This document shows positions 11,352-53,159 of a DNA stretch of 64,000 bases, one piece after another. The notes under the pieces were generated by a model. It made no database searches. It saw only the letters and a program-made list of their open reading frames with translations, and had not been told where the DNA came from. The number at the start of each line of letters is the position of its first letter. The first letter of the stretch is position 1. The stretch covers positions 27,429 to 91,428 of IMG/VR virus record IMGVR_UViG_3300007516_001784, one strand, 5' to 3'. This stretch comes from a virus. Made by a program: the position numbers and the translations under genes.

Positions 11352-11377
11352 GTGAAAATCGCTGACTGCTAAGGCAG

Positions 11378-33582: not shown

Positions 33583-34242
33583 ATGATGGTTGATGTACCT
33601 GACGACACAGTAGCACAGATTCTTGAACAGTATCATCCCTTTGTTCGCTACATTGCTAAACGTGCCTGTTGCTCATCTGCGACGCTTGATGTCAACGACT
33701 TGTATCAGGTTGGAGATATGGCTGTTTTACGAGCGGTTAAAGCATATGATCCTTCATCTGGCACTAACATCAAGTCGTTTGTTACAAGCTCCATTCGAAA
33801 CGCGATCTTTAACGAGGCGGCTCGTTTTCTTGGTGTATTGACAGTTGATTTTAGAACGACTGCCTTGGCGTCTATGGCGGCAAAATTGCACGAAAAAGGA
33901 CAAAGTGACGAAGAGATTGCAGTTGCGTTAACTAACAAGTATGGTCGCAATTTCGATGCAGATCATGCTCGCGACTTGCATATCACCTATAGTCGTAGAC
34001 ACTATACACAAGTCCAAGAAGATATCACGGTAGACGGCATTGAGAATGATTTCTCGATCAAGGATCTATTAGACAGTGTTGTAAAGGACGAGACAGATCG
34101 TATCATCCTTTATAGACGCATACTGGGGGGTCTCTCTGTAGAACAGATAGCGGCCATTCTTCATATTTCAAGAAGGGCGGTTTCCAAAAAAGAGACCTGT
34201 CTTAAGACCAGAATCAAGCGAGCCCTTGAGAACGCGACATAA
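33583..34242 (+). CDS. Phage RNA polymerase sigma factor, sigma70 family
   Basis: 219 residues. Region 2 is visible at about 18-80 (VRYIAKR ... DLYQVGDMAVLRAVKAYDP then SFVTSSIRNAIFNEAARF), a region 3-like helix pair follows (QSDEEIAVALTNKYG), and region 4 is at about 165-215 (DRIILYRRILGGLSVEQIA, then a helix-turn-helix ending RRAVSKKETCLKTRIKRAL). It should direct host RNA polymerase to phage promoters, most likely late ones. A GAGG-containing ribosome site precedes the start; ATG 33586 is an alternative. It ends in a TAATG overlap with the first glycosyltransferase. Confidence 0.88.
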   Translation: MMVDVPDDTVAQILEQYHPFVRYIAKRACCSSATLDVNDLYQVGDMAVLRAVKAYDPSSGTNIKSFVTSSIRNAIFNEAARFLGVLTVDFRTTALASMAAKLHEKGQSDEEIAVALTNKYGRNFDADHARDLHITYSRRHYTQVQEDITVDGIENDFSIKDLLDSVVKDETDRIILYRRILGGLSVEQIAAILHISRRAVSKKETCLKTRIKRALENAT

Positions 34243-36047
34243 TGTATAAGAAACGAATTCTATTTGTTGGTGAAGCTAGTTTTTTGAGTACTGGTTTTTC
34301 AACCTACTATCGTGAGTTGTTGCCTCGATTAGCCGCTACAGGCAAGTATGAAATTGCTGAGCTTGGCTCGTATGCACGTCAGGATGATCCTCGTGTACAA
34401 GAGTTTATTGCTGGTCGTTGGCGTTTTTATGGCGTGATGCCAACCACTGATGAAGAGAATCGAGTTTTTCAACAGCCAAGTCCGCACCCACGTACACGCG
34501 GACAAAACACTAATCAGTTTGGTGAACACAAGTTTGCTTACGCTCTTGTTGATTTTAAGCCGGATATCGTTATTGATATTCGTGACTGGTGGATGCTTGA
34601 ATTCCAAGAACGTAACATCTTTCGCTCATGGTACAAGTGGCTTGTAATGCCAACGGTTGACGCTGAACCTCAACAAGAAGAGTGGATTCAGTCATATGAA
34701 AACGCCAACATGGTTTTGGCGTATTCGGATTATGGCATTCATACGTTGCGTCGCCAATCTTCGCTAGCTACAAACGGCAAGCGTGCCATGAAGATTTTCC
34801 CGAAGCCGATGCGTCCTGGCGTAGACATTAACTCTTTCAAGCCAACTGACAAGAAGACGAGTCGCGAACACTGGAATTTGGCCGCTGACGTACCTATTAT
34901 TGGTACCGTTATGCGTAATCAAAGTCGCAAACTCTATCCCGATCTTATTGACGCTTTTGCGTTAATGAAGAATAAGTATAAGGGCGAGTCACAAGTTGAC
35001 AAGGCTGTATTACTCATTCATTCGTGTTGGCCAGACAACATGCATTCATATGACTATCCTCGTCACGTAGCACGCCTAGATCGTTATGAGTGGATGGCCA
35101 ATCATCATAAGGGCATTCGCGGTAGCGTCTTGCAATCTCTCTATTGTCATTCTTGTAAGCAGCCGTCTGTCACTTTTGCCGCCAACCTCTTTGGTCGTCC
35201 GGTTCAAGAAGGACGCATTAAGCTACCGTGCTGTTATTGCGGCAAGACGGACGCTTCGCCGCCGAGCACGAGTGTTGGCTTCGACCGCAACGATCTAGCT
35301 AAGCTATACAATCTGATGGATGTTTACGTTCAGTGTTCTATTTGTGAAGGCGACGGCATGCCTATTCAAGAAGCCAAGGCTTGTGGTGTCCCAGCCTTGG
35401 TTATGGATTACACCGCCATGCGAGAGAAGGGCCGTTACCCTGATTACTCTCATTTCAAGGAATCTGATATCAATGAACGTAATTATACGTGCCACAAGGG
35501 TGGTGAAGTAATTAACGTTGATAGATACTATTATGAACCTGAAACTTCATGCAAGAGGGCGTTGCCTGATATCGCTGATCTAGCACTTAAAATGCGTAAC
35601 ATGATTAAGGATCCAGTGCGTCTAGCGGCACTTAGTAACGAGGCTCGTGAATGCGTTGAAGAAAACTACAACTGGGATGAGTTGTGGCATCAGTGGGAGT
35701 ACGTGTTGGATAATGTCAAAATTTTGGATCGTGCCGATACATGGGATAGTCCCATCGCTCAGATTGACGAAGTGCGTAGCACTCCTGTTCCGGCTAACCT
35801 GAGCGATGAGGAGTTTGTGAATTGGCTATACTTGAACATTCTTAAGTATCCTTCGGTGGATACCGAAGGGGCCAAGATGTGGATCTCTCACATTCAACAG
35901 GGCGTAACACGCGATCAACTCATGCAGCAATTTGTCTCGATCGGTAATCAGCAATCAAGTGCTAGCAAGATGCGTGATCAAGTGCGACTTGAAATGAGTG
36001 ATAAGCTGTCGGCTTTGCCGACGAAGAAGTCGCAGGAGTTTGTATGA
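34242..36047 (+). CDS. GT4-type glycosyltransferase with inserted zinc ribbon
   Basis: 601 residues, longer than a usual GT4 enzyme (about 380). The GT-B fold is indicated by an N-terminal Rossmann-like half (RILFVGEASFLSTGFSTYY), a linker GTVMRNQSRKLYPDLIDAF, and the nucleotide-sugar motif CEGDGMPIQEAKACGVP around 368-384 with the two Glu residues of the E-x7-E signature. A Cys4 element (YCHSC near 302-305, CCYCGK near 330-334) is inserted between the domains and probably binds zinc. The last 110 residues form an extra helical tail. It opens the glycan island and overlaps the sigma factor stop by one base and the next GT by four. Confidence 0.85.
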   Translation: MYKKRILFVGEASFLSTGFSTYYRELLPRLAATGKYEIAELGSYARQDDPRVQEFIAGRWRFYGVMPTTDEENRVFQQPSPHPRTRGQNTNQFGEHKFAYALVDFKPDIVIDIRDWWMLEFQERNIFRSWYKWLVMPTVDAEPQQEEWIQSYENANMVLAYSDYGIHTLRRQSSLATNGKRAMKIFPKPMRPGVDINSFKPTDKKTSREHWNLAADVPIIGTVMRNQSRKLYPDLIDAFALMKNKYKGESQVDKAVLLIHSCWPDNMHSYDYPRHVARLDRYEWMANHHKGIRGSVLQSLYCHSCKQPSVTFAANLFGRPVQEGRIKLPCCYCGKTDASPPSTSVGFDRNDLAKLYNLMDVYVQCSICEGDGMPIQEAKACGVPALVMDYTAMREKGRYPDYSHFKESDINERNYTCHKGGEVINVDRYYYEPETSCKRALPDIADLALKMRNMIKDPVRLAALSNEARECVEENYNWDELWHQWEYVLDNVKILDRADTWDSPIAQIDEVRSTPVPANLSDEEFVNWLYLNILKYPSVDTEGAKMWISHIQQGVTRDQLMQQFVSIGNQQSSASKMRDQVRLEMSDKLSALPTKKSQEFV

Positions 36048-37279
36048 AATTACTATTCACTGGCCCGCTATTGGATTTTAGTGGATTCGCTCATGCCTCA
36101 CGTATCTTTCTGCGTACGCTCTTGCAAGATGATAATATTGTCGTGACAGCACGGGCACTCAAATACGATCAGCTAGACGTTGGTCAGGCTTTCAAGCCAG
36201 ACGCTTGGCTATCCGCCGTTCTCGCAAGAGACTTGCAGGACGTTGATGTAGCCATTCAGATGACAACGTGTAATGTCGAGGCTGTACCAATTCCTGGCAT
36301 CCTGAATGGATTGTATACGTTCTTAGAAAGCAGTCATATGCAGTTGTCTTGGGTAGCCAAGGCTAATGAGTTTGACTTCTTGATGGTGCCATCTAAATCT
36401 AACGCAGAAGCGATGTTTAACTCTGGCGTGGTTAAGCCTATTGTTGTGTGCGGTCTTCCATGTGACGAAGATGTATACGCCAAGCAGTACGAGCCGTACA
36501 CTCTTGAGCACGCTGGCGACCGCACGGTGTTCTACAACATCTGTCAGTTGAGTAACAAGAAGGGGATTGACGCCCTGTTACGTGCTTATCATGCGGCCTT
36601 CTGGGACCGTCCAGACGAAGTTTTGCTTGTTCTTAAAACGTACATTCAGATGTCTGGACGGAATAATGAGCAAGAGCAAGTTAAGCAATACATTCAGAAT
36701 ATTCGTCAACGTTGCCGCATTCCTGCTGATCGTTTTCCGCCCGTGTTGCCGTTAGTATTCACAATGAGCGATGATGAGATTCATAGTCTTCATGCTCGTG
36801 GCGACGCTTACGTTTGTTCTTCTCGTGCCGAAGGATGGGGTATCCCCGTTTTTGATGCTCTTGGATATGGCAAGACAGTAATCACAAATGCCGCTGGTGG
36901 TATGGCGGATTTCGTGACTCGTGATAATGCTCTCGTATATGGTGGTATGCCAACATACTTCTTTGATACGCCTCATAGTGATCCAGGACTTTACACTGGT
37001 GTCGAACAGTGTTTCGAGCCATGTGTTCCAGAAATGGCCATGGTCATGCGTAACTTTCATTTCCTTCGCAAGGGAGACAAAGAAGGGGTGCTTGACGATT
37101 CCAATAAAGAACAATGGAGGTCTGTTTTGACGCGGCGTGAGAACGCTAAGCTTGTTGGACAGAAGCATGACTACAGACGCATTTCGTCTATAATTACGAA
37201 ACAAATTCATACGATGCTCGATATGTGGAAACAAACAGGAGTCGTGAGATTCAATGAAACCGTCCAAGAGAATAGCTAA
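36044..37279 (+). CDS. GT4-type glycosyltransferase
   Basis: 411 residues with a GT-B architecture: LLFTGPLLDFSGFAHASRIF at the N-terminus and the donor-binding motif SSRAEGWGIPVFDALGYG around 260-277, ending in the typical strand and glycine-rich loop (ITNAAGGMADFV). It would transfer a sugar from a nucleotide donor to a growing glycan or protein. The start overlaps the preceding GT stop by four bases. Donor and acceptor cannot be told from sequence. Confidence 0.88.
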   Translation: MKLLFTGPLLDFSGFAHASRIFLRTLLQDDNIVVTARALKYDQLDVGQAFKPDAWLSAVLARDLQDVDVAIQMTTCNVEAVPIPGILNGLYTFLESSHMQLSWVAKANEFDFLMVPSKSNAEAMFNSGVVKPIVVCGLPCDEDVYAKQYEPYTLEHAGDRTVFYNICQLSNKKGIDALLRAYHAAFWDRPDEVLLVLKTYIQMSGRNNEQEQVKQYIQNIRQRCRIPADRFPPVLPLVFTMSDDEIHSLHARGDAYVCSSRAEGWGIPVFDALGYGKTVITNAAGGMADFVTRDNALVYGGMPTYFFDTPHSDPGLYTGVEQCFEPCVPEMAMVMRNFHFLRKGDKEGVLDDSNKEQWRSVLTRRENAKLVGQKHDYRRISSIITKQIHTMLDMWKQTGVVRFNETVQENS

Positions 37280-37598
37280 GTATAACCTAACAAATCGTCT
37301 TGAAAACGAGATGCGTGTTTCGTATCCGCAACGCGGTCTTAAGGCAGATTATCAAGGTAGTCGTACCGCCGCCATTCAGTTGTTTTGTTTGTCTTGCATG
37401 GGCGGCTGCCGTGCTGATGTAGTTGCCTGTACATCTAAGAGTTGTCCACTTTGGCAGTTCAGACCGGGTGGCAAAAAAGGTGTGCGTCCGCCGGGTATTC
37501 CTAGCGAGGCAGACTATAGTGAAATGATTGACGATAGTGTTAGTGATAAGCAGCGTGAAGCAGGACGTAAGCTACGTAAAGAGGATGATGTAGAATGA
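37254..37598 (+). CDS. Cys-rich zinc-binding small phage protein
   Basis: 114 residues, overlapping the previous GT by 26 bases, with AGGAG upstream. The core FCLSCMGGCRADVVACTSKSC is a four-Cys (plus extra Cys) element followed by PLWQFRPG. Short phage proteins with this CLxCxGG ... C ... CPLxxxRxG pattern are common and presumed to bind zinc; their role is unknown. N- and C-termini are basic and charged. It lies inside the glycan island but shows no link to sugars. Confidence 0.75.
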   Translation: MKPSKRIAKYNLTNRLENEMRVSYPQRGLKADYQGSRTAAIQLFCLSCMGGCRADVVACTSKSCPLWQFRPGGKKGVRPPGIPSEADYSEMIDDSVSDKQREAGRKLRKEDDVE

Positions 37599-38704
37599 AT
37601 CAGTTTTATGAACCACAAATGAAGTCGATTGCGGAGCGAGTGAATCGCAAGCCGCGATTGGTACAGTGTATTCAGATGCTGAACGAAGAAGAGTTTGCTC
37701 CCTTGGTTCTGCGTTCGATCTATGATCAGGTAGACCGCATCCTAGTTATCGAAGGGGCGGTCGCAAACAACCCTCGATCGACGCCCGATGGGCATTCGAT
37801 CGACAAGACTCGTGAAATCCTAGCGGACTTCAAAGCGAATCACGACCCCAAGAAAAAGGTTGTTATCATCTCTATCAACAAGCATTGGAAAAACTTGGAA
37901 GAGATGAAGCAGACGTTCTTGGATATGTCCATTCCCGGTGATTGGATTTTGATCAATGACGCTGACGAGTTCTACAGGCCGCAGGACATTGAACGTCTTC
38001 GTAGTGCTATTGATCTTAATCCTGCGGCCTGTGAGTTTGTGCCGAACTTCCTACATTTCTATCGTGACTTCAATCACGTTGCTGTGCCCGGTCCTGAATG
38101 GCAACCGCAGCATCAGCGTGTTTTCAAGTACGTGCGTGGCATGAAGTACAATAGTCATCCTATCGTAACAGATCCGGCTGGTCACTGTACATATTTCTCG
38201 CCTCACTATCAGCATCGTAGAGTGATGCTGAATGACTTTTTCATTTTCCACTATGGCTATGCTCGTTCGAACATGAACGACATTATGAAAGCTAAGCAGG
38301 AATATTACGAGAAGGAACTCGCGGCACATGGTGCCGCCAACAAGAAGTTTGATCAGAAGGTTAAGGATTGGTTTTCTAAGACCGAGCCAGTATTGGAATT
38401 TACTGGACTTCATCCAAAAGTAATGCACGCACATACACTGTATGGAAAGCTAGATCCTGAGTTTGAGTGTGATCATACCAATATCCCAAAGTGGGACAGC
38501 GATCAATTCTATTCTAAGGTACTTGCTGGCGAAGAGTACGGTAACATCTGGCTCTGTATGACTCGACAGTCGCAGCCGCATATGCACCACTACCATAATG
38601 GAATGACGTTGATGTTACCGCCGGTAGATATGCCGTGTGGTAATCCGCAAGACGCCGGGTTAAATAAGCTTGGTGATTCCTGGGCTCATGTAGGATCCTG
38701 TTAA
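37595..38704 (+). CDS. GT2-like glycosyltransferase (GT-A fold)
   Basis: 369 residues. It opens with PRLVQCIQMLNEEEFAPLVL, a typical GT-A start, and has the metal-binding DxD-like NDADEFYRP around 125-133 preceded by GDWILI. Several His and Tyr residues sit in the middle (YFSPHYQHRR). The ATG overlaps the previous stop (ATGA). A 13-bp inverted repeat lies within the coding region just after the DxD codons. The C-terminal 80 residues are unlike standard GT2 enzymes and may bind the acceptor. Confidence 0.8.
   Translation: MNQFYEPQMKSIAERVNRKPRLVQCIQMLNEEEFAPLVLRSIYDQVDRILVIEGAVANNPRSTPDGHSIDKTREILADFKANHDPKKKVVIISINKHWKNLEEMKQTFLDMSIPGDWILINDADEFYRPQDIERLRSAIDLNPAACEFVPNFLHFYRDFNHVAVPGPEWQPQHQRVFKYVRGMKYNSHPIVTDPAGHCTYFSPHYQHRRVMLNDFFIFHYGYARSNMNDIMKAKQEYYEKELAAHGAANKKFDQKVKDWFSKTEPVLEFTGLHPKVMHAHTLYGKLDPEFECDHTNIPKWDSDQFYSKVLAGEEYGNIWLCMTRQSQPHMHHYHNGMTLMLPPVDMPCGNPQDAGLNKLGDSWAHVGSC
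37974..38032 (+). repeat. Perfect 13-bp inverted repeat inside a glycosyltransferase gene
   Basis: ACAGGCCGCAGGA at 37974-37986 and its exact complement TCCTGCGGCCTGT at 38020-38032 are separated by 33 bases. They would form a strong GC-rich stem in RNA or as a DNA cruciform. The left arm overlaps the codons following the DxD motif. Confidence 0.92.
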
Positions 38705-38727
38705 GCTAGACCTGGACGGTCACAGAT

Positions 38728-39567
38728 ATGAAAATTAGTTACTTGGTGTCTACTTTTGATTCAGGTTCTTATCTTGATCGGCATATTGCCGACTTGCTTG
38801 AAAAGCAAACGGATCCCGACTTCGAGATCGTTGTTATGAATCCCGCTTCTCCTGGCACCGATGACATCATTGGTAGGAAGTGGGCCGAGCTTGACTTGCG
38901 AGTCAAGTATCTTTATTGGCCAACGCGAGAATGGTACGGTACGTCGTGGCTAAGAGCTTGGCAGAGTGCCACTGGCGATTTCGTGATCAATAGCAACACA
39001 GACGATTACCACGCACCGACTACTACTACTGAGTTTCATAAGCACATGAGCTTTGCTACCAGCGGTATGCACGCCGGTCGCAAGATTGGTTTCGGATATG
39101 CTGGCATTCATGTCATCGACGATCATGGCGTTCCACTTGGCGGTGGTATTAAGCCGCTCTTCGACTTTGAACTAATGAGTCGTGAGTGTTGGGCAGGCCC
39201 TCAAGTGTGTTGGCGGAATGATCCGGCCTTCAAGAAGTCCCTAGACTGGGACTTAATGTTCGCTCGTTCCGAACAATACCGATCGGCGTTTGATTACTGG
39301 CTATGGCTGTATTTCATGTCCCTGGGCTATCACGGTTATGTGATCCCACAGGTGCTCACGATTTACACTCAAAGACCCGATTCGATCGAGAACAGCAACA
39401 AGTCTGCGAACAATTACGAGACTTACTCGGCCATTTCCGAGTTCTTCGGTCATAATTTCAAGGGACACTTGAAGCACGCGATCGAGTTCGAAGACTTCAA
39501 GAACCTCCCACCGCGTGACGAATGGATTGCCACTATGCAAGCTGGCAAGAAATGGAAGCGATCATGA
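38728..39567 (+). CDS. GT2 glycosyltransferase
   Basis: 279 residues, a compact GT-A enzyme: MKISYLVSTFDSGSYLDRHI at the start, FEIVVMNPAS for the donor-binding strand, and a metal site NSNTDDYHAP around 90-100. WAGPQVCWR and a later Trp-rich helix suggest the acceptor pocket. It follows a 23-base gap, so it may restart translation on its own. It overlaps the cupin gene by four bases. Confidence 0.85.
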   Translation: MKISYLVSTFDSGSYLDRHIADLLEKQTDPDFEIVVMNPASPGTDDIIGRKWAELDLRVKYLYWPTREWYGTSWLRAWQSATGDFVINSNTDDYHAPTTTTEFHKHMSFATSGMHAGRKIGFGYAGIHVIDDHGVPLGGGIKPLFDFELMSRECWAGPQVCWRNDPAFKKSLDWDLMFARSEQYRSAFDYWLWLYFMSLGYHGYVIPQVLTIYTQRPDSIENSNKSANNYETYSAISEFFGHNFKGHLKHAIEFEDFKNLPPRDEWIATMQAGKKWKRS

Positions 39568-39911
39568 AGCAAGAAGTTATAGTCAAACCATGGGGTCGAG
39601 AGAGGATTCTGGAAGCTAACAACAAGTACGCTTTCAAGATTCTTGAAGTGGATCCTGGCAAGCGTTTGAGTTTACAGTACCACGAAGTGAAGTGTGAAAC
39701 AATGTACTGTCTGTATGGCAGTGGCACTCTCACTATCATCAAAGATAATACGCAACGTAAGATTACTCTATTGCCAGGGCGGTACATTACTATCTTGCCT
39801 TTCGAGATTCATCGTTTAGAAGCTAGCGAAACGTCGCCACTTGCGGTCATGGAAGCAAGCTCGCCAGAACTGGGTGATGTCGTAAGACTACAGGATGATT
39901 ATGGTCGATAA
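39564..39911 (+). CDS. Mannose-6-phosphate isomerase-type cupin
   Basis: ATG 39564 overlaps the preceding stop (ATGA); an in-frame start 42 bases earlier is unlikely. At 115 residues it matches the cupin domain of type II phosphomannose isomerase/GDP-mannose pyrophosphorylase proteins: VKPWGRE at the N-terminus, SLQYHEVKCETMYCLYGSG with metal-binding His and Glu, and a second strand with PFEIHRLEA. It would interconvert fructose-6-phosphate and mannose-6-phosphate, feeding GDP-mannose to the GDP-fucose enzymes encoded at 51.2-53.2 kb. The guanylyltransferase half is absent and would come from the host. Confidence 0.85.
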   Translation: MKQEVIVKPWGRERILEANNKYAFKILEVDPGKRLSLQYHEVKCETMYCLYGSGTLTIIKDNTQRKITLLPGRYITILPFEIHRLEASETSPLAVMEASSPELGDVVRLQDDYGR

Positions 39912-40275
39912 AATGATTTTCAAGAAATTGTGGTATCAGGTATTTGCTTCTAAGCTCTATCGTAGAGAGCGTGAAACACATCAACTCTTTCTAGATAAAT
40001 GTGACGAAGTACTCAAGCTTCAATGTGAAATCAATAGACTTGAGCTACCTACGTATATTGGCAGTTGGGTAGCATCACAATCCCATGCCGCGAAGCAACG
40101 TATCGTTGCTCTAGAGCATGACCTTGCGAAGATGAGTCTTGTACGCGACGCCTTGAAGCATGAAAAGGCTTACTCGCTCTTCTTAGAGGACAGTCTTATA
40201 TGTCACAACCCTGGCGAAGTATTTAACGCCCTTCCGTTTGACAAGCGGAAAGAGTATTTTGAACGAGCACAATGA
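39901..40275 (+). CDS. Hypothetical protein in the glycan island, about 124 aa
   Basis: Possible starts are ATG 39895, 39901 and 39913; 39901 is taken because an AGG element lies at 39891-39893. The product is helical, basic at the N-terminus (FKKLWYQVFASKLYRR) and probably coiled-coil from residue 25 to 75. No motif is recognised. It overlaps neighbours on both sides, so it belongs to the glycan operon and may be an accessory or chain-length factor. Confidence 0.6.
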   Translation: MVDKMIFKKLWYQVFASKLYRRERETHQLFLDKCDEVLKLQCEINRLELPTYIGSWVASQSHAAKQRIVALEHDLAKMSLVRDALKHEKAYSLFLEDSLICHNPGEVFNALPFDKRKEYFERAQ

Positions 40276-41360: not shown

Positions 41361-41407
41361 CGAGTTAATTGGTTACAAGATTTGTAGAAAGTTAAGAGAT
41401 CAAGGAC

Positions 41408-43469: not shown

Positions 43470-43487
43470 AAAGGCGTGCAATCCTCA

Positions 43488-43503: not shown

Positions 43504-43569
43504 GAGAACGAATCGAGATAGTAGTTCACTAGTTTTGTTTAATTTGTCAGAAAGAAAAAGAAGGTTAAG

Positions 43570-45128: not shown

Positions 45129-45458
45129 ATGTCAATAACTTTAACAGAGAGTGCTATTAAAGAATTAGATCGTATTATGTTAGAACAGAATCTTTCAAAA
45201 AATACATGCCTTCGTTTAGGAGTGCGGGGAGGCGGCTGTTCGGGCTTTAGCTATATTTTAGAATTCGATGACACTGTGAATGAAGTAGATCAAGTTAATG
45301 AATATGGCGGCATTACAGTTGTTTGTGATCCAAAGAGTTTTTTGTATCTTAGTGGTATGAGTGTTAACTTTGAGAACACTTTAATGAATCGTGGTTTTAA
45401 GTTCATCAATCCTAACGCAGTTAAAAGCTGTGGATGCGGCGAGTCGTTTTCGGCATGA
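45129..45458 (+). CDS. A-type iron-sulphur carrier (IscA/ErpA/HesB family)
   Basis: 109 residues, the usual length. The three conserved cysteines are present: Cys 37 in RGGGCSGFSY and the C-terminal CGCG pair at 101 and 103 (KSCGCGESF). These proteins take up and hand over Fe-S clusters or iron. Phages of photosynthetic or aquatic hosts sometimes carry HesB-like genes; here the possible Fe-S client is the 27813-28781 nuclease. It directly abuts the preceding gene and overlaps the following glycosyltransferase start by four bases. Confidence 0.92.
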   Translation: MSITLTESAIKELDRIMLEQNLSKNTCLRLGVRGGGCSGFSYILEFDDTVNEVDQVNEYGGITVVCDPKSFLYLSGMSVNFENTLMNRGFKFINPNAVKSCGCGESFSA

Positions 45459-46327: not shown

Positions 46328-46329
46328 TT

Positions 46330-46416: not shown

Positions 46417-47091
46417 ATGAAAGAGTCTGACAAGATTAGTATTTTGGTTTGCTGTCACAGCAACGACCACGAGCACGACATGCTTTTGCAAGCTGCTCTT
46501 GAGTCTTTAACTCGACAGACGTATCAAAATTTTGAAACTGTTTTAGTGCTTGATGAGTGTCGTGAAGGCACGAAATGGATAGCTGAACCCTATAGGGATA
46601 TTTTAAGTCTTAAGATCCATGAGCGTCCCCATAAGCAAGGCTTGGCAATGGCCAAGAACTTTGGTCTAGCTCGCTGTACGGGTCAATGGGTTGCCTACCT
46701 TGATGCTGACGACCAGTGGATGGATTGTAAGCTTGAACTGCAACGCAACTTCCTTTTAGAGAACGAGAATACGGATTTTGTATTTTGTGAAGTATGGGAT
46801 AATTATGCTGGTACGCTAACTCCTAACTGTTTCAAGATTGGGCAATACGAAACCCACGCGGCAATTGCTACTGCGATGCCGCGTGAGAATGTTGTATGTC
46901 ACGGCTCAGCGTTAATTCGCAAGTTAGCTATTGATTCTCTGGGTGGTTATAGTGCCGACCGTTCACTATTGGGTCGCGAAGACTGGGATTTGTGGCAAAG
47001 AGCTATCGCTAATGGATTTCATTTCTATAAAATACCAGAAAGATTGTATATTTATGGCATGGGAACTAGCGTTGTTCGTGGCGAAATATGA
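46417..47091 (+). CDS. GT2 glycosyltransferase
   Basis: 224 residues: KISILVCCHSNDHEHDMLL with the donor-binding strand, FETVLVLDEC, GLAMAKNFGLARCTGQWVAY and the DxD motif LDADDQWMD around 100-108, then SLLGREDWDLWQRA, the usual acceptor-side ED. ATG 46417 follows the relic of a lost paralogue in the same frame and has no strong ribosome site, so the present start may be a leftover of a truncated or once-fused gene. The N-terminus is nevertheless complete for a GT2 fold. It overlaps the next gene by four bases. Confidence 0.85.
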   Translation: MKESDKISILVCCHSNDHEHDMLLQAALESLTRQTYQNFETVLVLDECREGTKWIAEPYRDILSLKIHERPHKQGLAMAKNFGLARCTGQWVAYLDADDQWMDCKLELQRNFLLENENTDFVFCEVWDNYAGTLTPNCFKIGQYETHAAIATAMPRENVVCHGSALIRKLAIDSLGGYSADRSLLGREDWDLWQRAIANGFHFYKIPERLYIYGMGTSVVRGEI

Positions 47092-48056
47092 TGAAAAAAG
47101 TCTTGTATGTAGGTTTGTTGCATAACTATGGTAAGCCCGAAGAGGGCTTCTCATACGAGCATATGAATATTGAAGCTGGCCTTCGTGACTGTGATATGTT
47201 TGAAGTGACGTATTGGTATCCTGATTCGTACGTCTATCAAGATTCTGCCGAAGAAGTTTTCACGAGCCAGAAGTTCGACGCCATCTTTCATGTCGCCTTT
47301 AACGAATCACTAGATCTGCCTGAGGGGGTAGCAAAGCTAGCCCTCAGGCAGGATATTCCAGTCATACAATGGGATTGCGATAGCTCTTGGCGTTTCCAGA
47401 ACTGGATCTTCCCGCGTCGTGACCGCGTTAGTCACTTTGTCACGACACATTCAGCCATGGTGCCGCAGTACGAGAAGAATGGCTTGAAAGTTATTAAGTC
47501 ACAGTGGGCTGGTTCCCCGGCGTATAAGGCGAATTCGGGGGTGTATATGTACGACGCTACGTTTGTTGGCCAGAAGCATGGTCAGATGCCGAATGGCAAA
47601 TTTCTACGCTCAGAGATCGTGGATGCCATTATGAATGCTGGTATCCGCGTTGACATCTTTGGTAATTACTGGGATGGTTATGCCAACTGGCATGGCTACG
47701 CGAAGGACTTTGAAGAAGTGATTCGCGTATTCAATCAGTCGCGTGTCAATTTGAATCTGTCGAATCCATGGCATCATGGAACGATGCCACAGATTAAGGG
47801 CAGGCACTTCGAAATTCCTCAGTGTCAAGGGTTTCAGATTAGTACGCCAGCAGACGATCTTGAATCTTACTTTGTACCAGACAAGGAAATAGTCATTGCC
47901 AAAAACGTTCAAGAGTTGATTGAGAAGACACAATACTATCTTGCCAATCCAGAGGAGCGAGAGGTAATTGCTCAAGCGGGTCGTGACCGTATGCTTCGTG
48001 ACCATCAATGGTACCATCGTTTCGAGTACATCTTTAAGGAAGTGGGATTGCTATGA
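47088..48056 (+). CDS. CgeB-like glycosyltransferase
   Basis: 322 residues: KVLYVGLLHNYGKPEEGF at the start, IPVIQWDCDSSWRFQNWI, YMYDATFVGQKHGQMPNG, VDIFGNYWDGYANWHGY and a C-terminal QAGRDRMLRDHQWYHRFEYI, an order typical of CgeB-type GT-B proteins. It differs from the 45455-46327 enzyme in the middle but belongs to the same class. An 11-bp inverted repeat lies in the coding region near codon 78. ATGA overlaps join it to both neighbours. Confidence 0.83.
   Translation: MMKKVLYVGLLHNYGKPEEGFSYEHMNIEAGLRDCDMFEVTYWYPDSYVYQDSAEEVFTSQKFDAIFHVAFNESLDLPEGVAKLALRQDIPVIQWDCDSSWRFQNWIFPRRDRVSHFVTTHSAMVPQYEKNGLKVIKSQWAGSPAYKANSGVYMYDATFVGQKHGQMPNGKFLRSEIVDAIMNAGIRVDIFGNYWDGYANWHGYAKDFEEVIRVFNQSRVNLNLSNPWHHGTMPQIKGRHFEIPQCQGFQISTPADDLESYFVPDKEIVIAKNVQELIEKTQYYLANPEEREVIAQAGRDRMLRDHQWYHRFEYIFKEVGLL
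47316..47351 (+). repeat. Perfect 11-bp inverted repeat inside a glycosyltransferase gene
   Basis: CTGCCTGAGGG at 47316-47326 and its complement CCCTCAGGCAG at 47341-47351 enclose a 14-base loop that can itself pair TAGC with GCTA. The combined hairpin is strong, in frame, and has no T run. Confidence 0.92.
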
Positions 48057-48586
48057 GATTGAATCTAGCATCACACGGCGACAACCGCGAAGGCTACGTC
48101 AACATTGATTACGATCATCCCTCGGCAGACCTCAAGGCCGATGTTTCGGCACTGCCGTACGAGGAAGATTCGGTAGATCAGATCCTGGCTTACCACATTC
48201 TCGAACACTTTCGAGCCGGTGAGTACGAGCCACAACTATCGAATCCGCTCAATCCCAAGACAGCAATGGCTGCTCTTGCTGAGTGGCGTCGAGTCCTGAA
48301 ACCGGGCGGCACACTAGAGATCAAGGTGCCGGACTTCGAGAAGATCGTTTGGCTTTACTTCAACTTCCCTCAATGGGCCAGAGCAGAATCCAGCGTCAAC
48401 GCTCCATTTGGTAGCTACTCGGATTGGGTTGTATCTAACGGGCAGCACCAGTGCCTCTTCGACAAGAAGGCCATGCACAAGCTTCTGACGTTGTGTGGCT
48501 TCAAGGACATTACCTTTCTAGATGGTCCACCGGCAGCGGTGATTGATCGAGCAAACCTTGAAATGTATGTAGTGTGTAGCAAATGA
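48053..48586 (+). CDS. SAM-dependent methyltransferase, degenerate motif I
   Basis: 177 residues. The Methyltransf_11-type pattern is seen in VSALPYEEDSVDQILAYHILEHF and AEWRRVLKPGGTLEIKVPDF. The usual glycine-rich motif I (LNLGCG-like) is replaced by LNLASHGDNREGYVNID, so SAM binding may be weak or altered. Members like this sit beside glycosyltransferases and may O-methylate sugars. It overlaps neighbours by four bases on both sides. Confidence 0.75.
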   Translation: MRLNLASHGDNREGYVNIDYDHPSADLKADVSALPYEEDSVDQILAYHILEHFRAGEYEPQLSNPLNPKTAMAALAEWRRVLKPGGTLEIKVPDFEKIVWLYFNFPQWARAESSVNAPFGSYSDWVVSNGQHQCLFDKKAMHKLLTLCGFKDITFLDGPPAAVIDRANLEMYVVCSK

Positions 48587-49218
48587 ATTACGAAACTCGC
48601 AAGGATAATCACGACTTCATGGGGCCGGACCATATTGCCCGGTTCTTACGTAACCACAGGACGGGCACGGACAACCTGGGTCGTCATCGCCTAGCAGCTA
48701 TCGTTCGCGAACACGCGAAGCCAATGGTGCTTGACGTAGCCTGCGGGACCTGCGTTACGTGGGAGGTCATGAAGGCTGTTGGCGTTGACTGCCAATACTG
48801 GGGCTTTGATCGCACCGAAAAGATGCTCGCCCACGCCAGAGCCCTGTATGGCGATGAGATCTGCCTCCGCAAAGGCTTCATCCAATCTCTTCCTTTTGAA
48901 GCTGATTCTTTTGACATCGTTATTGCTCGCCACATTCTCGAACACTTAGGCGAAGGTTATGAACAAGCAATCAAGGAAGTCTATCGCGTTGCGTCGAAAG
49001 AGGCGATCGTTATTCTTTTCGAGGACTTGGCCGACATGCCGCACGATGTCATCAAGGAGTCAGAGCCAGACGAGAATGATTGTACCTACTTCTGGAACAC
49101 ATATGCTCATGATAAGTTCATGACCTTCCTTGGTACACTGGGATGCCAAGTCAAGGTGGAGTACGTTCGTACGCCAGGTGCTGCCGCAAATGACACTATT
49201 ATTAGATTAATCAAATGA
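48583..49218 (+). CDS. Class I SAM-dependent methyltransferase
   Basis: 211 residues with motif I VLDVACGTCVTW near 48-59, the acidic residue of motif II in YWGFDRTEKML, SLPFEADSFDIVIARHILEHL as the motif III/IV region, and a final strand AIVILFEDL. The acceptor cannot be read from sequence; placed between a methyltransferase and a GT2 enzyme, it is likely a sugar or glycan O-methyltransferase. Confidence 0.85.
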   Translation: MNYETRKDNHDFMGPDHIARFLRNHRTGTDNLGRHRLAAIVREHAKPMVLDVACGTCVTWEVMKAVGVDCQYWGFDRTEKMLAHARALYGDEICLRKGFIQSLPFEADSFDIVIARHILEHLGEGYEQAIKEVYRVASKEAIVILFEDLADMPHDVIKESEPDENDCTYFWNTYAHDKFMTFLGTLGCQVKVEYVRTPGAAANDTIIRLIK

Positions 49219-50063
49219 GTATTGACGTAACATACGGCGTTCTTAATTTCAATCCTAGTGGCGACGAATCTGCTACCAGGGCGTACATCGCTGCCGTCGA
49301 ATCACTTGCCACGAACAGAAGCAAGAACCTGACTAGTGAAGTCTATCTGTTCGATCAGGCTAGTCAGCCCGATCTCACAGAGGCGTTAGCTCGTAAGCAC
49401 GGCTTCCATGCTGTTCTATTGCGTAGCAACGTGGGGATCAGTCGTGGTATTAACCTACTTGCCAATATAGCTCGTGGCGAATTTGTGTCTCTTGTGACCT
49501 CTGACGTGACGTTTACGCCTGGACTAGATGACGCTTTGGTATCGACACTTCGTGCCGATCCCAAAATTTATCAGATCTGTCCAACGTCAGACAACTCATC
49601 GCTAGATCATCAACGAATGCAACAAGCTCGTCCAGACGGCATTCTTGTTGAAAACCTTGTACAAGAATTGACTATCCAGTTTTGGCCACGTACTGTTTTC
49701 GACAAGATCGGATACTTTGACGAACGCTGGAAAGCATGCTATGAGAATATAGACTTTGCTCTACGTGCGTTTCTGGAAGGTGGCTCTGTAGTTGTTGATC
49801 AGCGTGTCTTTTGTCATCACGAACATAATGGCACCACTAAGAGCGGTGCTATTCACAAGGCGTATGACGGCTATATGTCAATGCCCAATGGTCTTGATCA
49901 TCAGCCGCTCTTGCAGATGTGGCGTGACAAGTGGCCCAACCTTGAAAGATACATGAATCACTATGACACATTCACTAAGGATATGGGCCAAACGCGGGCG
50001 GCAATGTTTTTTGCGTATAGCAAGAACGTGTATCTGCCGTATGTACAAGAGGTCCCTTATTAA
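49215..50063 (+). CDS. GT2 glycosyltransferase
   Basis: 282 residues: a donor-binding start (DVTYGVLNFNPSGDESATR), then SEVYLFDQASQP, HAVLLRSNVGISRGINLLANIARGEFVSLV-type fold and a TSDV in place of DxD around 94-97, followed by FDERWKACYENIDFALRAF with the acceptor-side Asp. The DxD motif is reduced to TSDVTF, so metal binding may differ. It overlaps the methyltransferase before it by four bases. Confidence 0.82.
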   Translation: MSIDVTYGVLNFNPSGDESATRAYIAAVESLATNRSKNLTSEVYLFDQASQPDLTEALARKHGFHAVLLRSNVGISRGINLLANIARGEFVSLVTSDVTFTPGLDDALVSTLRADPKIYQICPTSDNSSLDHQRMQQARPDGILVENLVQELTIQFWPRTVFDKIGYFDERWKACYENIDFALRAFLEGGSVVVDQRVFCHHEHNGTTKSGAIHKAYDGYMSMPNGLDHQPLLQMWRDKWPNLERYMNHYDTFTKDMGQTRAAMFFAYSKNVYLPYVQEVPY

Positions 50064-50064
50064 C

Positions 50065-50646
50065 ATGAAACGCTACGATATCATCGCACATCTGATTGAG
50101 GCACGCGACTACAAGTCGTATCTTGAAATTGGTGTACTGGAACAAGAAACATTCAACAGCTTGCCGCCACTAGATGTTAAACATAGTGTTGATCCTAATG
50201 GGCAAGCTGTGTTTAATACTACCTCCGACGACTTTTTCAAGAATCATTGTGATCAATGTTATGATTTAATCTTTATTGACGGCTTGCATCTTGAAGAGCA
50301 AGTGCAAAGAGATATGGAAAATTCATTGACACACCTAAACGAAGGTGGCATAATTATAGTACATGACTGCTTGCCTTCGGCAGAGTACGAGCAACTGCGA
50401 GAAGGTGTTAGTGGCAAACCATGGACTGGGGACGTGTGGAAGGCATTTGCAAAGCTGCGAGCGGATCGTAGGGACTTAATTATGCGTGTTGTGGATACTG
50501 ATTATGGATGTGGGTTAATTGAGCGTGGTGTCGATCCGGTCGAGTACCACTCAATTGATGGCGATTACACCTGGGACTTCTTCTGTAAGAATCGTAACAA
50601 GATCATGGGTGTGATTACACCGGAGCAGTTTATTGGACGTTCATAA
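50065..50646 (+). CDS. SAM-dependent methyltransferase, Methyltransf_24-like
   Basis: ATG 50065 is preferred (AAGAGGT upstream); an open frame reaching back to 49963 overlaps the GT2 gene and is not needed. 193 residues: YLEIGVLEQETFNSLP for motif I, the motif II Asp in VDPNG, then YDLIFIDGLHLEEQVQRD and GGIIIVHDCLPSAEYEQL, as in FkbM/Methyltransf_24-type enzymes that methylate sugars. This gene and its neighbours form the methylation part of the island. Confidence 0.82.
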   Translation: MKRYDIIAHLIEARDYKSYLEIGVLEQETFNSLPPLDVKHSVDPNGQAVFNTTSDDFFKNHCDQCYDLIFIDGLHLEEQVQRDMENSLTHLNEGGIIIVHDCLPSAEYEQLREGVSGKPWTGDVWKAFAKLRADRRDLIMRVVDTDYGCGLIERGVDPVEYHSIDGDYTWDFFCKNRNKIMGVITPEQFIGRS

Positions 50647-51160
50647 TCGAGATTGGGTTGTATCCCGTAACAATCTTTTGAATGGTAAGCTACTTGAGAT
50701 TGGTAGTTTTGTTGTGCCCGGCCAAGAACAGATTGCCTTGCGACCAGCAGTCGCAAAGTTTGTCAATAGCTATCTCGGCATTGACATGCGTGAAGGCCCT
50801 GGCGTTGATCTCGTAACTAGCGAAGACAACGCCTTTCCTTTTGAAGATAACACATTTGATGTCGTTGTATCGTTAGATACCCTTGAACACGTTCGCAACC
50901 CTTGGACGTTCATTGAAAACGCAGCGAGAGTCCTAAAGCCCGGTGGTCACTTCTTTTTGGCTACCGTGTTTTCATTTCCTATTCATGGTTACCCGGATGA
51001 CTACTGGCGTTTCACCCCCAATTGCTTGAAGATGCTCATCGAGACCTATGGTCTCGAAGTGGCAGGTGATTTGACGCCATCTGAATGCTGTACTAAAAAC
51101 CCTGCACATCACTTGGCGAACCCGACAATCGTTCGTCTAATTGCTAGAAAGCCACTATGA
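50633..51160 (+). CDS. SAM-dependent methyltransferase, TTG start
   Basis: 175 residues. The frame opens only after a stop at 50612-50614 and has no ATG at its start; TTG 50633, with GGAG at 50622-50625 seven bases upstream, is the best initiation codon. The Methyltransf_11 pattern is clear: KLLEIGSFVVPG as a looser motif I, LGIDMREGPGVD as motif II, FPFEDNTFDVVVSLDTLEHV, and RVLKPGGHFFLAT. It ends in HHLANPTIVRLIARKP. A role in sugar methylation is inferred from the island. Confidence 0.78.
   Translation: MDVHNRDWVVSRNNLLNGKLLEIGSFVVPGQEQIALRPAVAKFVNSYLGIDMREGPGVDLVTSEDNAFPFEDNTFDVVVSLDTLEHVRNPWTFIENAARVLKPGGHFFLATVFSFPIHGYPDDYWRFTPNCLKMLIETYGLEVAGDLTPSECCTKNPAHHLANPTIVRLIARKPL
51039..51057 (+). 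repeat. Perfect 8-bp inverted repeat in a methyltransferase gene
   Basis: TCGAGACC and GGTCTCGA enclose a three-base TAT loop. It is compact and inside coding sequence; an 8-bp stem is expected several times by chance in 64 kb, so it is listed as support for the longer repeats only. Confidence 0.9.
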
Positions 51161-52143
51161 ACGCCAGGACATTAGTTACTGGTTCGTCTGGATTTTTAGG
51201 TAAACATGTCGTTCCACTCTTACGTGCCGATGGTCATGAAGTGATGACCCCATCAAGTAACTCTTTGAACTTACTTGACCAAGACGCTAAGGCAATTGCG
51301 AGTTATCTTGTTGTCCACGAGGTAAGTACGGTTGTTCATCTTGCTGCAATTTGTGGTGGCATCGGCATCAATAAAGACAATCCAGGTAAGTTCATGTATG
51401 AGAACTTGCAGATGGGTCTTAACGTTATCGAGGCGTGTCGCCTCGCTAACGTAAATAAGCTTGTGAATTTGAGTACCGTCTGCTCGTATCCCAAGAACAC
51501 GCCGGTGCCATTTCAAGAGAGTGATCTATGGAATGGCTATCCCGAAGAGACGAATGCTCCATATGGCATTGCTAAGAAAACGATTGTGGAGCTTGGTATT
51601 GCATACCATAAGCAGTATGGTTTAAACGTCACTAATCTAGTGCCGGTTAATATGGCCGGTGAGCACGATCATTTCGATCTTTATTCCTCTCATGTTGTGC
51701 CAGCTTTGATTCGCAAGTTTGAAGAAGCTGATCAACAAAGAGAGTATGTAGATATCTACTCAATGTACCAAACGTTACCAACTGACAGAGCTTTGATTAG
51801 TGCCCCATCTGTAACCTTATGGGGTACAGGATCTGCTTCTCGCGAGTTTTTGTATGCCGGTGATTGTGCCAAAGCGGTTGCAATTGCCGTTCAAAAGAAT
51901 ACGGGGCCAGATCCTATCAATCTTGGCACTGGTCAAGAAATTACCATCAAGCAGTTAGCCGAGTTGGTAAAGCGAATTGGTGGCTATTCTGCCAATATCG
52001 AATGGGATCATACTAAGCCAGATGGTCAACCACGCAGATCACTAGATGTTTCAAGAGCTAAGAACGTGCTTCGCTGGGAAGCAACCACACCGATCGAAGA
52101 AACTGTGCGACGCACAATTGAATGGTATAGACAGAACCAATGA
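51157..52143 (+). CDS. fcl: GDP-L-fucose synthase
   Basis: 328 residues of the extended short-chain dehydrogenase family: NADP-binding TGSSGFLG at 8-15, catalytic Ser region LSTVCSYPK around 105-113, Tyr 136 and Lys 140 in PYGIAK, HFDLYSSHVVPALIRKF, WGTGSASREFLYAGD and a final DGQPRRSLDVSRA, all typical of GDP-4-keto-6-deoxymannose epimerase/reductase. It turns the product of the next enzyme into GDP-L-fucose. Two hairpin-forming sequences lie nearby, one (51422-51452) in this gene. It overlaps neighbours by four bases. Confidence 0.93.
   Translation: MNARTLVTGSSGFLGKHVVPLLRADGHEVMTPSSNSLNLLDQDAKAIASYLVVHEVSTVVHLAAICGGIGINKDNPGKFMYENLQMGLNVIEACRLANVNKLVNLSTVCSYPKNTPVPFQESDLWNGYPEETNAPYGIAKKTIVELGIAYHKQYGLNVTNLVPVNMAGEHDHFDLYSSHVVPALIRKFEEADQQREYVDIYSMYQTLPTDRALISAPSVTLWGTGSASREFLYAGDCAKAVAIAVQKNTGPDPINLGTGQEITIKQLAELVKRIGGYSANIEWDHTKPDGQPRRSLDVSRAKNVLRWEATTPIEETVRRTIEWYRQNQ
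51422..51452 (+). repeat. Near-perfect 14-bp inverted repeat inside fcl
   Basis: ACGTTA-T-CGAGGCG pairs with CGCCTCG-C-TAACGT around a three-base TGT loop, 13 of 14 positions paired. The hairpin lies near codons 89-99 of the GDP-fucose synthase gene, in frame and without a T run. Confidence 0.92.
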
Positions 52144-53159
52144 GTAAGACAGCTATCATTACGGGCATCGGCGGCATGGACGGATTTTATCTATCTCGCT
52201 TATTGCTTGAAAAGAACTATAGGGTTGTTGGCATACTGCGTCGCTCCGCCAACAAGAATGATGCTCGTTTACGTACACTGCAAGGTTCACCCAACCTTCA
52301 TTTGGTTTATGGTGACGTTACTGATGCGGCAAGTATCAGTACGATAGTTGAGCAGTTTAGACCTGACGAATTTTATCATCTAGCCGCCAACTCTTTCGTG
52401 GGGTGCTCATGGACATCGCCCAACCATGTGTTTGAAACGAATACAATTGGCGTGATTAATTGTCTAGAAGCGTTGCGACAGTTCAAGAAGGACTGTCGTT
52501 TTTACTTTGCTGGCAGTAGCGAGATGTATGGCGATTACGTTAAGCGTAAGGGCGGTAACGTTCTTCTGGACGAAAACTCACCAATGATTGCCGCATCACC
52601 TTATGGAGTATCTAAGGTGGCGGGATATCAAATGACAAAGGTGTACAGAGAGTCATATGATATGTTTGCTGCGTGCGGCATTCTATTCAATCACTCTGCT
52701 CCTCATCGCGGCGAAGAGTTTTTTACTCGAAAAGTCACAAGTCAGTTGGCCAAGATCTTTTGGGGCCGTCAAGATCAACTTGTCTTGGGCAACCTTACTG
52801 CCAAACGTGACGAGGGCTATAGTGACGATTACGTTAAGGCTATGTGGCTCATGCTGCAACATGACAAGCCAGACGATTTCGTTATTTCAACCGGCGAGAC
52901 CCATAGCTGTCTAGAATGGCTTGACCACACACTCGACTTCTTTCACCTTTCAAGCGATTGTGTTACCACGTCTTCTAGTTTGATTCGCCCCAACGAAGTG
53001 AATGTATTAATTGGTGACTCTACTAAAGCACGCGAGGTTTTAGGGTGGACGCCATCTGTAAGCTACAAAGAATTGAATACTAAGATGTGTTGTTATGATT
53101 ACCATCTTCAATCATCGAACCCCGAGTTCGCTCGTCGAGCGGACGAGTTCCTTTTCTAG
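52140..53159 (+). CDS. gmd: GDP-mannose 4,6-dehydratase
   Basis: 339 residues: a nucleotide-binding glycine motif GIGGMDG at 9-15 (most family members have GQDG), the active-site SSEMYG at 126-131, Tyr 155 and Lys 159 in SPYGVSK, then NHSAPHRGEEFFTRKVT (usually NHESPRRG) and GNLTAKRDEGYSDDYVKAMW, matching the family's substrate-binding region. It makes GDP-4-keto-6-deoxymannose from GDP-mannose, the first step to GDP-fucose. The order fcl then gmd is the reverse of the common bacterial arrangement. It overlaps fcl by four bases. Confidence 0.92.
   Translation: MSKTAIITGIGGMDGFYLSRLLLEKNYRVVGILRRSANKNDARLRTLQGSPNLHLVYGDVTDAASISTIVEQFRPDEFYHLAANSFVGCSWTSPNHVFETNTIGVINCLEALRQFKKDCRFYFAGSSEMYGDYVKRKGGNVLLDENSPMIAASPYGVSKVAGYQMTKVYRESYDMFAACGILFNHSAPHRGEEFFTRKVTSQLAKIFWGRQDQLVLGNLTAKRDEGYSDDYVKAMWLMLQHDKPDDFVISTGETHSCLEWLDHTLDFFHLSSDCVTTSSSLIRPNEVNVLIGDSTKAREVLGWTPSVSYKELNTKMCCYDYHLQSSNPEFARRADEFLF

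Follow-up and report, generated by a model that had tools for sequence, protein, structure and literature searches.

Clusters of glycosyltransferase genes are often reported from phages, but their targets have mostly been guessed. Here we ask which molecule is decorated by the products of such a cluster in the virus record IMGVR_UViG_3300007516_001784 (91,428 bases, labelled G000); its bases 27429-91428, a stretch of 64,000 nucleotides, are called the window. The cluster, termed the island in the following, comprises 24 genes at 34242-53159, all on the plus strand and separated by -26 to +100 bp, with many 4-bp overlaps. It encodes eleven glycosyltransferases (GTs), four methyltransferases (MTs), one phosphomannose isomerase (PMI)-type cupin, two enzymes of the GDP-mannose 4,6-dehydratase and GDP-L-fucose synthase types (GMD and FCL), and six further proteins. 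An acceptor can be proposed from the sequence alone, namely the tail-region proteins of the virion, in which the motif Ser-Gly-[Val/Ile/Leu] (SG[VIL]) predicts dozens of attachment sites. We give about even chances to a cytosolic O-glycosylation of the tail proteins at SG[VIL], which would be begun by a pair of GT4-family enzymes, GT1 and GT4b, and extended to a fucosylated and methylated glycan. Glycosylation of tail proteins is the most economical reading because the motif is confined to surface-type proteins, is specific for serine, and tracks the clade; the identity of the acceptor we infer from a correlation within this one clade.

A Ser-Gly motif in the tail-region proteins

The motif was first noticed by reading the proteins of G000, and the form SG[VIL] was chosen on this record. 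Among the dipeptides expected more than 15 times in the virion module, SG is the most over-represented (166 vs 90.8), and it is followed by Val, Ile, or Leu and preceded by Pro, Val, or Ala. In the other modules SG occurs at 0.86-1.12-fold of expectation. The 30 virion proteins contain 87 SG[VIL] where 19.0 are expected (z 15.7), and 39 instances of [AVP]SG[VIL] compared to 4.0 (0 vs 2.2 in other proteins). The 22 tail-region proteins have 81 SG[VIL] (14.2 expected), a number reached in none of 1000 shuffles (maximum 29). Leaving out the 1601-aa adhesin-like protein does not abolish the excess (62 vs 15.3). Elsewhere the motif is flat, with 3 vs 2.5 in seven head-module proteins and 3 vs 2.6 in the tape measure protein. 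The same 22 proteins contain TG[VIL] and AG[VIL] 7 and 9 times (12.9 and 12.2 expected), and across the virion proteins neither TG, AG, and GS nor ST and SA are raised. The SG pairs are encoded by 18 different hexamers, the commonest of which accounts for 29 of 130.

In six aligned sequences of the 505-aa tail-region protein, which is identical in G000 and G003 and 25-26% identical in the most distant orthologue, two SG sites are common to all, six more are present in four or five, and four are found in a single sequence. The portal and major head proteins were named by PHROGs, and terminase, tape measure, adhesin, and fibre by eye. Seven SG-bearing or neighbouring tail-region proteins gave no PHROG match, and the labels 'tail', 'adhesin', and 'fibre' therefore rest on gene position and inspection. 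A Ser-Gly sequon of this kind was not found in print in the one open-access literature collection searched.

The motif in related viruses and controls

The related viruses form a large clade of uncultured phages with contigs of up to about 150-230 kb. The motif had been fixed before G014, G019, G025, G027, G031, G032, and the tail loci were analysed, all of which share ancestry. Genome-wide, SG[VIL] has z values of 5.5-12.0 in all eight clade records tested and of -0.8 to 2.6 in all twelve control records. Within the clade, G003 was scanned at 16-133 kb, excluding its repetitive ends, and G019 over 120 kb; G003 is about 98% alike G000 and hence not independent. The controls include lambda, two GMD-bearing marine viruses, the GMD-bearing G001 without GT1, and DnaE-bearing phages without GT1, and the parts covered were 49 kb of T4, 100 kb each of S-SCSM1, LR756508, and AG-345-F15, 60 kb of G001, and 50 kb each of Mel-JY01, AG-345-E02, MT835501, and OR846595.

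An SG[VIL] excess of 3.5-5.5-fold is found in all 22 clade tail loci. Loci L202, L203, L212, L218, and L219 lie in G003, G011, G019, G014, and G025, all of which except G011 are among the records tested genome-wide, and some further loci are near-identical to one another. Pooled over these loci, SG was counted 875 times (203 expected), NG 133 (129), DG 126 (147), TG 138 (179), and AG 290 (233). T4-like loci reach at most 2.1-fold for SG[VIL] in 45 usable cases; they derive from the best 80 of 552 relatives, of which 35 with less than 2000 aa of open reading frames (ORFs) were dropped, and they cover mostly head and tail-tube genes, which makes them an imperfect match for fibres. The virion proteins of T4, S-SCSM1, and lambda contain just 14, 28, and 11 SG[VIL] (11.8, 19.6, and 7.0 expected). 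GT1 is also encoded in 18 of the 22 contigs holding the 505-aa protein, the four misses being fragments of 29-45 kb.

The GT1/GT4b core beside DnaE

A profile search of viral contigs with GT1 yielded 169 relatives, and the locus counts given here refer to the best 80, some of which are near-identical contigs. DnaE is located 129-3006 bp upstream of GT1 in 77 of these loci, and the remaining three (L066, L068, and L094) do not have a closed GT1 ORF. The adjacency persists where DnaE is only 27-38% identical and split into two ORFs. Among the 77 loci, GT4b starts within 200 bp of the GT1 end in 58 and after a longer gap in eleven, and none was seen in eight. Counting distinct sequences above a length limit, the EX7E motif of GT1 is retained in 62 of 64, and in the 55 GT4b sequences the second acidic residue of this motif is D in 32 and E in 21. 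In GT1 only the GT and DUF4214 domains were detected; a PDB search with its profile gave no match, nor did a tblastn search at E 1e-5 among 50,697 phage records.

All 14 nearer large records (G013-G026) have matches to GMD and a second SDR. The distance between GMD and GT1 is about 40 kb in G026 and about 15-26 kb in the other 13. A PF16363 match of any kind was found in just eight of the eleven distant records. Because the linkage of GT1 to DnaE is deep but GMD is patchy in the distant records, we read the two GT4 core genes as probably old and suppose that the fucose branch was added later. In 26 distant loci, a 239-aa backbone gene has its start 6.0-10.7 kb downstream of that of GT1, compared to 19.6 kb in the window, and at least one backbone gene is visible in 27 of the 77 loci. 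One distant cassette has five genes without Pfam match after its two GT4s, and another has a DegT-type aminotransferase. The preliminary description of the island had suggested a defined product; this would fit the seemingly old GT4 pair, but between lineages the length of the stretch after the core ranges widely, with about 3 kb in L099 and over 20 kb at the other extreme. It is conceivable, if rather doubtful, that the entire clade follows one O-glycosylation code, in which dozens of SG[VIL] sequons would be glycosylated by the ancient DnaE-linked GT4 pair while extension cassettes swapped between lineages (fucose, amino sugar, methyl caps) vary the coat.

Two GT1 homologues are interrupted by in-frame inteins (L304:107-2986 and L305:69-3107 on contigs G038 and G045). 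The insertion points differ slightly, both being at or beside a conserved DIRDWWM motif. Hint-type and LAGLIDADG_3 matches are above cut-off in one or both, and Intein_splicing is below. Inteins usually occupy essential active sites. In distant lineages (loci L087-L128) DnaE matches two ORFs in nearly all cases (e.g. L099:5120-9477), and by eye an exonuclease-like ORF lies between the two in L099 and L111. One match in a genome collection is a 158-kb contig binned with a Hydrogenophaga metagenome-assembled genome; phage genes extend across the 21.8 kb examined, and the match is too weak for naming a host.

Weighing the possible acceptors

Several observations speak against a glycosylation of the tail proteins. 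Its main weakness is the common descent of all clade members, in addition to which several loci coincide with tested records or with one another; the motif and the GT core may therefore be inherited together and have no functional link. Tail genes are confirmed by annotation in T4, S-SCSM1, and lambda only, and several of the other controls, being parts of genomes, may lack them. Protein families can raise such motifs, because AG[VIL] is 1.8-fold enriched in the T4-like loci (378 vs 211) and plain SG in the virion proteins of lambda (65 vs 40.6, z 4.2). In G032, QG[VIL] is slightly stronger than SG[VIL] (z 8.3 vs 7.7). Eleven GTs are many for one glycan, and IscA and the IMPDH/GMP reductase-type gene do not obviously fit a glycan pathway. 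In addition, a structural turn would equally explain the conservation of the SG positions. This is the chief rival: SG[VIL] would be a turn motif of clade-specific tail folds, and the glycan acceptor another molecule. It agrees with the conserved positions among the 505-aa orthologues, with the seven tail-region proteins without PHROG match, with the second motif of similar strength in G032, and with the mild SG excess in lambda. However, the motif is carried by proteins of unlike length, turns would favour NG, DG, TG, and AG too, none of which has an excess like that of SG in the pooled tail loci, and the virion proteins of T4, S-SCSM1, and lambda show only small surpluses. A turn motif is thus an unlikely explanation, albeit one to be taken seriously.

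Two other targets had been offered by the preliminary description next to virion proteins, the host surface polysaccharide and modified DNA bases, and both are disfavoured here. Remodelling of the host surface polysaccharide has been proposed for pelagimyophages and cyanophages, the GT clusters of large aquatic phages have been interpreted accordingly (PMC7029224; PMC9602691), and bacterial polysaccharides use GDP-fucose as precursor (PMC9602691). If the island acted on the host surface during infection, by superinfection exclusion or masking, the SG motif would be unrelated to it. Yet the Wzx flippase PF01943 was absent from all six records searched (other flippase types were not searched), as was the PHPT initiator PF02397; two of these records are about 150 kb long, and all are possibly incomplete. 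Of 14 control genomes, 13 and nine were positive, respectively. There is also no clear membrane segment among the island enzymes, as the hydropathy peaks of all 24 proteins are at most 1.66, with the highest in the Rossmann core of FCL. Furthermore, between G000 and G003 all eleven GT and four MT proteins are 76-98% identical (FCL 91%, GMD 56%), compared to 67% for the adhesin-like protein and 26% for a neighbouring tail-region protein. Because the GTs and MTs are conserved while these proteins diverge, changes in receptor-type proteins are not mirrored by the island. We consider a role in surface polysaccharide remodelling rather improbable. Decoration of hypermodified DNA bases against restriction seems very unlikely. 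Glycosylation of phage DNA is known (PMC12619734), and the core GT pair adjoins a replicative polymerase, which is a weak argument, but the thymidylate synthase-family hydroxymethylase PF00303 was found in none of the six records. The search for the Tet/JBP dioxygenase PF12851 carries no weight either way, as it gave no match anywhere, including the controls.

The island enzymes and a possible pathway

As a gene cluster, the island is confirmed, and the preliminary description was right in its single direction with tight overlaps, its eleven GTs of different folds, four MTs, and PMI-type cupin. It had left out six genes within the span, an IMPDH/GMP reductase-type enzyme, IscA, a Cys-rich protein, and three small ORFs. 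Ten of the GTs and all four MTs pass their Pfam cut-offs (the gathering cut-off for the GTs). The GTs comprise four GT4-type and two GT-B proteins with PF13524, which we take to be CgeB-like, four GT2-type proteins, and one GT-A protein of 222 aa. A PDB search with one of the PF13524 proteins gave no match. The coordinates are collected in Table 1; the ORF caller was of a simple type and includes spurious ORFs.

Table 1. Features of the window, with the evidence for each assignment
Feature	Position	Strand	Evidence
505-aa tail-region protein, putative acceptor	8209..9726	+	SG[VIL] 8 vs 0.78 expected
213-aa tail-region protein, putative acceptor	10459..11100	+	SG[VIL] 4 vs 0.69 expected
1601-aa adhesin-like protein, putative acceptor	11925..16730	+	SG[VIL] 25 vs 3.9 expected
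1101-aa tail-region protein, putative acceptor	16733..20038	+	SG[VIL] 10 vs 1.7 expected
645-aa tail-region protein, putative acceptor	20040..21977	+	SG[VIL] 6 vs 0.95 expected
DnaE DNA polymerase, anchor upstream of GT4 core	30035..33322	+	By eye and homology; homologue upstream of GT1 in 77/80 loci, gap 129-3006 bp
Sigma-70-like factor directly upstream of island	33583..34242	+	PF04542 46.8 bits
GT1, GT4-family GT with C-terminal DUF4214, core gene	34242..36047	+	PF00534 39.2 bits, PF13946 30.9 bits
GT4b, second core GT4-family GT, 4-bp overlap with GT1	36044..37279	+	PF00534 41.0 bits
114-aa Cys-containing small protein	37254..37598	+	No family above cut-off
GT2-type GT	37595..38704	+	PF00535 26.2 bits (cut-off 23.3)
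GT2-type GT	38728..39567	+	PF00535 47 bits
Single-domain mannose-6-phosphate isomerase-type (type II) cupin, 115 aa	39564..39911	+	PF01050 48.1 bits (cut-off 23.6); TIGR01479 C-terminal part only
126-aa ORF	39895..40275	+	No family match
GT4-family GT	40272..41360	+	PF13692 42 bits
GT4-family GT	41408..42562	+	PF00534 39.1 bits
87-aa ORF	42541..42804	+	No family match
222-aa GT-A-fold GT (predicted) with conserved RDxDSR motif	42801..43469	+	AlphaFold2 model and fold matches
148-aa Cys-rich protein, signal-peptide-like start	43570..44016	+	Hydropathy; no Pfam match
IMPDH/GMP reductase family enzyme	44013..45128	+	PF00478 327 bits
IscA/HesB-type Fe-S protein	45129..45458	+	PF01521; TIGR00049 118.8 bits, above its cut-off
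CgeB-like (GT-B) GT	45434..46327	+	PF13524 37.5 bits
GT2 GT	46417..47091	+	PF00535 70.1 bits
CgeB-like (GT-B) GT	47088..48056	+	PF13524 106.2 bits
SAM methyltransferase 1 (MT1)	48053..48586	+	PF08241 32.7 bits
SAM methyltransferase 2 (MT2)	48583..49218	+	PF08241 62.5 bits
GT2 GT	49215..50063	+	PF00535 39.8 bits
SAM methyltransferase 3 (MT3)	50065..50646	+	PF13578 44.9 bits
SAM methyltransferase 4 (MT4)	50633..51160	+	PF08241 52.5 bits
FCL, GDP-L-fucose synthase-type SDR	51157..52143	+	NF047922 258.5 bits (cut-off 500)
GMD, GDP-mannose 4,6-dehydratase-type SDR	52140..53159	+	PF16363 333 bits (cut-off 27); TIGR01472 313.4 bits (cut-off 415)
Three backbone genes (239, 235, and 113 aa) closing the cassette, preceded by a 228-aa gene	53865..55626	+	Profile matches
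Two fibre-like proteins, putative acceptors	61423-61815 and 61840-62610	+	SG[VIL] 3 and 4 vs 0.87 and 0.72 expected

Neither Pfam nor PHROG nor NCBIfam gave a match for the 222-aa protein. It is predicted to be a GT-A-fold glycosyltransferase by a confident AlphaFold2 model built from 19 sequences (pLDDT 93.7); an earlier model from four sequences was set aside (pLDDT 50.7). The RDxDSR motif is invariant in the alignment of its relatives. With Foldseek, the best PDB match of the model is LgtC (7e-6), and the capsid-glycosylating enzyme 2p73 of PBCV-1, which we take to be domain 1 of A064R, matches at 2.8e-5 with a TM score of about 0.5; by sequence profile the latter reaches an E value of 0.065 only. 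VIA-align Z scores against GT-A enzymes are 12-14.7, and further matches are to proteins from uncultured Caudovirales and from giant viruses.

The best PDB matches of GMD are GMDs, the 18 best of FCL are GDP-fucose synthases, and GDP-L-fucose synthase is also the closest NCBI family of FCL. The two enzymes are thus supported at the family level, but both score below the NCBI equivalog cut-offs, and therefore their product names are presumptive. A Ser/Thr-Tyr-Lys triad, presumably catalytic, is retained in GMD (aligned to 1rpn and 2z1m) and in FCL (1e6u, with Thr replacing Ser). The cupin had no match in a PDB search. No guanylyltransferase (nucleotidyltransferase PF00483) was detected in 13 records, in line with the earlier remark that the host must supply this step to GDP-mannose, and the cupin lacks such a domain, unlike the bifunctional type II PMI/GMP enzymes. 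What had been suggested before, a supply of GDP-L-fucose for a methylated glycan, is supported in so far as the pathway seems dedicated and co-inherited and includes both methylation and a branch of the GDP-fucose type, with GDP-L-fucose itself as the presumed product.

Under tail-protein glycosylation, GT1 and GT4b would act on tail, adhesin, and fibre proteins that are not yet assembled and add the first sugar or sugars to the serine of [P/A/V]-Ser-Gly-[Val/Ile/Leu], and the other nine transferases would lengthen the chain. GMD and FCL could convert host GDP-mannose to GDP-L-fucose, the cupin, where present, may supply mannose-6-phosphate, with the pyrophosphorylase coming from the host, and the four MTs would cap the sugars. 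Gene content and order, conservation, selection, the lack of the tested membrane-glycan and hydroxymethylase families in the records searched, and the restriction of the motif to tail-region proteins of this clade are direct observations; we infer the motif as attachment site, GT1 and GT4b as chain starters, the sugars involved, and the sequence of these steps.

For the enzyme at 44013, profile scores favour IMPDH over GMP reductase (268 vs 226 bits); its short flap we take to be GMP reductase-like. Genes of this type are present in 25 of the 80 GT1 loci, with flanks ending 10 kb after GT1, and also near GTs in Mel-JY01. One idea is that the enzyme feeds GTP into GDP-sugar synthesis.

Conservation and gene turnover

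Nearer relatives were found by DnaE. The order of the GT, MT, FCL, and GMD genes is the same throughout in G011, G003, G009, G004, and G012, and up to the contig ends in G002, G008, and G010. The dN/dS values of the GTs and MTs against G004 or G012 are mostly 0.04-0.16 where dS is unsaturated (some genes are saturated), the exceptions being the 222-aa GT (0.20, G012), MT4 (0.23, G004), and the Cys-rich protein (0.4). Because the gene order recurs and dN/dS is mostly low, the island is more than a chance assembly, and these comparisons indicate that selection acts on it and that its genes are passed on together.

Single genes have been swapped. In G003 and G009, MT3, MT4, and FCL are 91-98% identical to those of the window, and GMD merely 56%. 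Four records have an IMPDH/GMP reductase-type gene with 29% identity to that of the window, and three have one with 58-76%. The cupin was found in G011, G002, and G010 only and is absent from G003, G004, G009, and G012; IscA was found in G011, G002, G003, and G009. None of the relatives has a Cys-rich protein at the place of 43570-44016.

By eye, free-standing HNH/homing-type ORFs are located within island junctions of G003 (85302-85781, 92412-92783, 93402-93947, and 96735-97073), G012 (32359-32967), and G004 (86547-87185 and 90070-90315). Some adjoin genes with sharply divergent alleles such as GMD, and none was noticed in the window. In G023 a GMD-type gene lies in an open frame of 692 aa (G023:C1:53483-55444) with a distance of about 960 bases between its two matched parts, and this gene too may thus contain an in-frame insertion.

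Comparison with known systems

The chlorovirus PBCV-1 encodes GTs, sugar methyltransferases, and GMD/GMER, obtains GDP-mannose from the host, and glycosylates a virion protein (PMC9614988). The window resembles it (A064R, A061L, A118R GMD, and GMER) in having GTs, MTs, and GMD/FCL-type enzymes and in the need for host GDP-mannose, with a putative acceptor here, and 2p73 has the GT-A fold that is predicted for the 222-aa GT. It differs in belonging to a phage of bacteria, in its single gene island with a GT4 core, and in its putative attachment sites, which are Ser-Gly motifs of tail proteins, where PBCV-1 has N-glycans on the capsid. The cyanophage S-SCSM1 also combines a monofunctional type II mannose-6-phosphate isomerase, GMD, GDP-fucose synthase, and several GTs, which have been read as modifying the host cell wall (PMC9602691). 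The window has the same set, as far as its cupin and FCL are of these types, but S-SCSM1 has no GT1 match and an SG[VIL] z value of 2.4 in the 100 kb examined. In mycobacteriophages, glycans are attached to capsid and tail-tube proteins (Freeman et al. 2023, as cited in PMC12619734). Those glycans sit at C-termini, whereas the sites proposed here are scattered along the tail proteins. By analogy, the island could work like the coat glycosylation of chloroviruses (PMC9614988) and, by its adjacent GT4s, like GtfA/GtfB, without being a member of either.

In the GtfA/GtfB system, a protein O-GlcNAc transferase for serine-rich repeat adhesins, two GT4-type enzymes start the O-glycosylation of adhesin serines and further GTs extend the chain. 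GT1 and GT4b are likewise two adjacent GT4 proteins. In contrast to that system, the putative acceptors have no Ser-rich repeats, with SG[VIL] in excess and ST and SA not raised, and the setting is a phage and not accessory Sec.

The Microcystis phage Mel-JY01, a PolB phage, has a SAM synthase, GuaB, several GTs, and a methyltransferase close together (L132:18788-29691). Unlike the clade of the window, it has only a 22% match to GT4b and none to GT1, and SG[VIL] is not enriched over the 50 kb examined, which may lack tail genes.

If tail-protein glycosylation is true, the island would be to a virus of bacteria what coat glycosylation is to the chloroviruses, with an O-glycosylation sequon in a phage clade. 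A possible reason for long glycan operons in some phages would then be shielding and varying the tail and not altering the host.

Further genes in the window and its relatives

Further GT-like genes were seen by eye outside the island at L004:9499-10443 and L004:10974-11783. The counterparts of the former in G003 and G004 score under the PF00534 cut-off, and another GT-like gene outside the island of a relative, at 118473-119069 of G003, is above the PF00535 cut-off. Between the two L004 genes, L004:10440-10961 encodes by eye a small Cys-rich protein with a signal-like start that resembles 43570-44016, and GT genes are found beside each of these two Cys-rich proteins. In G003, ORFs within 1-15000 and 133000-140000 (L025, L031, and L032) encode proteins with long iterated repeats such as LADGHVLADG and RRERDHR; these repeat ORFs are near both ends of the 151.8-kb record and have no match in G000.

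Downstream of the backbone genes, the window encodes an FAD-dependent oxidoreductase (PF01266) followed by a B12-type ribonucleotide reductase (56286-59463), a pair kept in G003. Next to them is a gene that is ThyX-like by eye (59782-60411). In G003 its match is near-perfect. Against G004 and G012, by contrast, even the best matches are saturated (dN about 0.8), pointing to a replacement of this gene.

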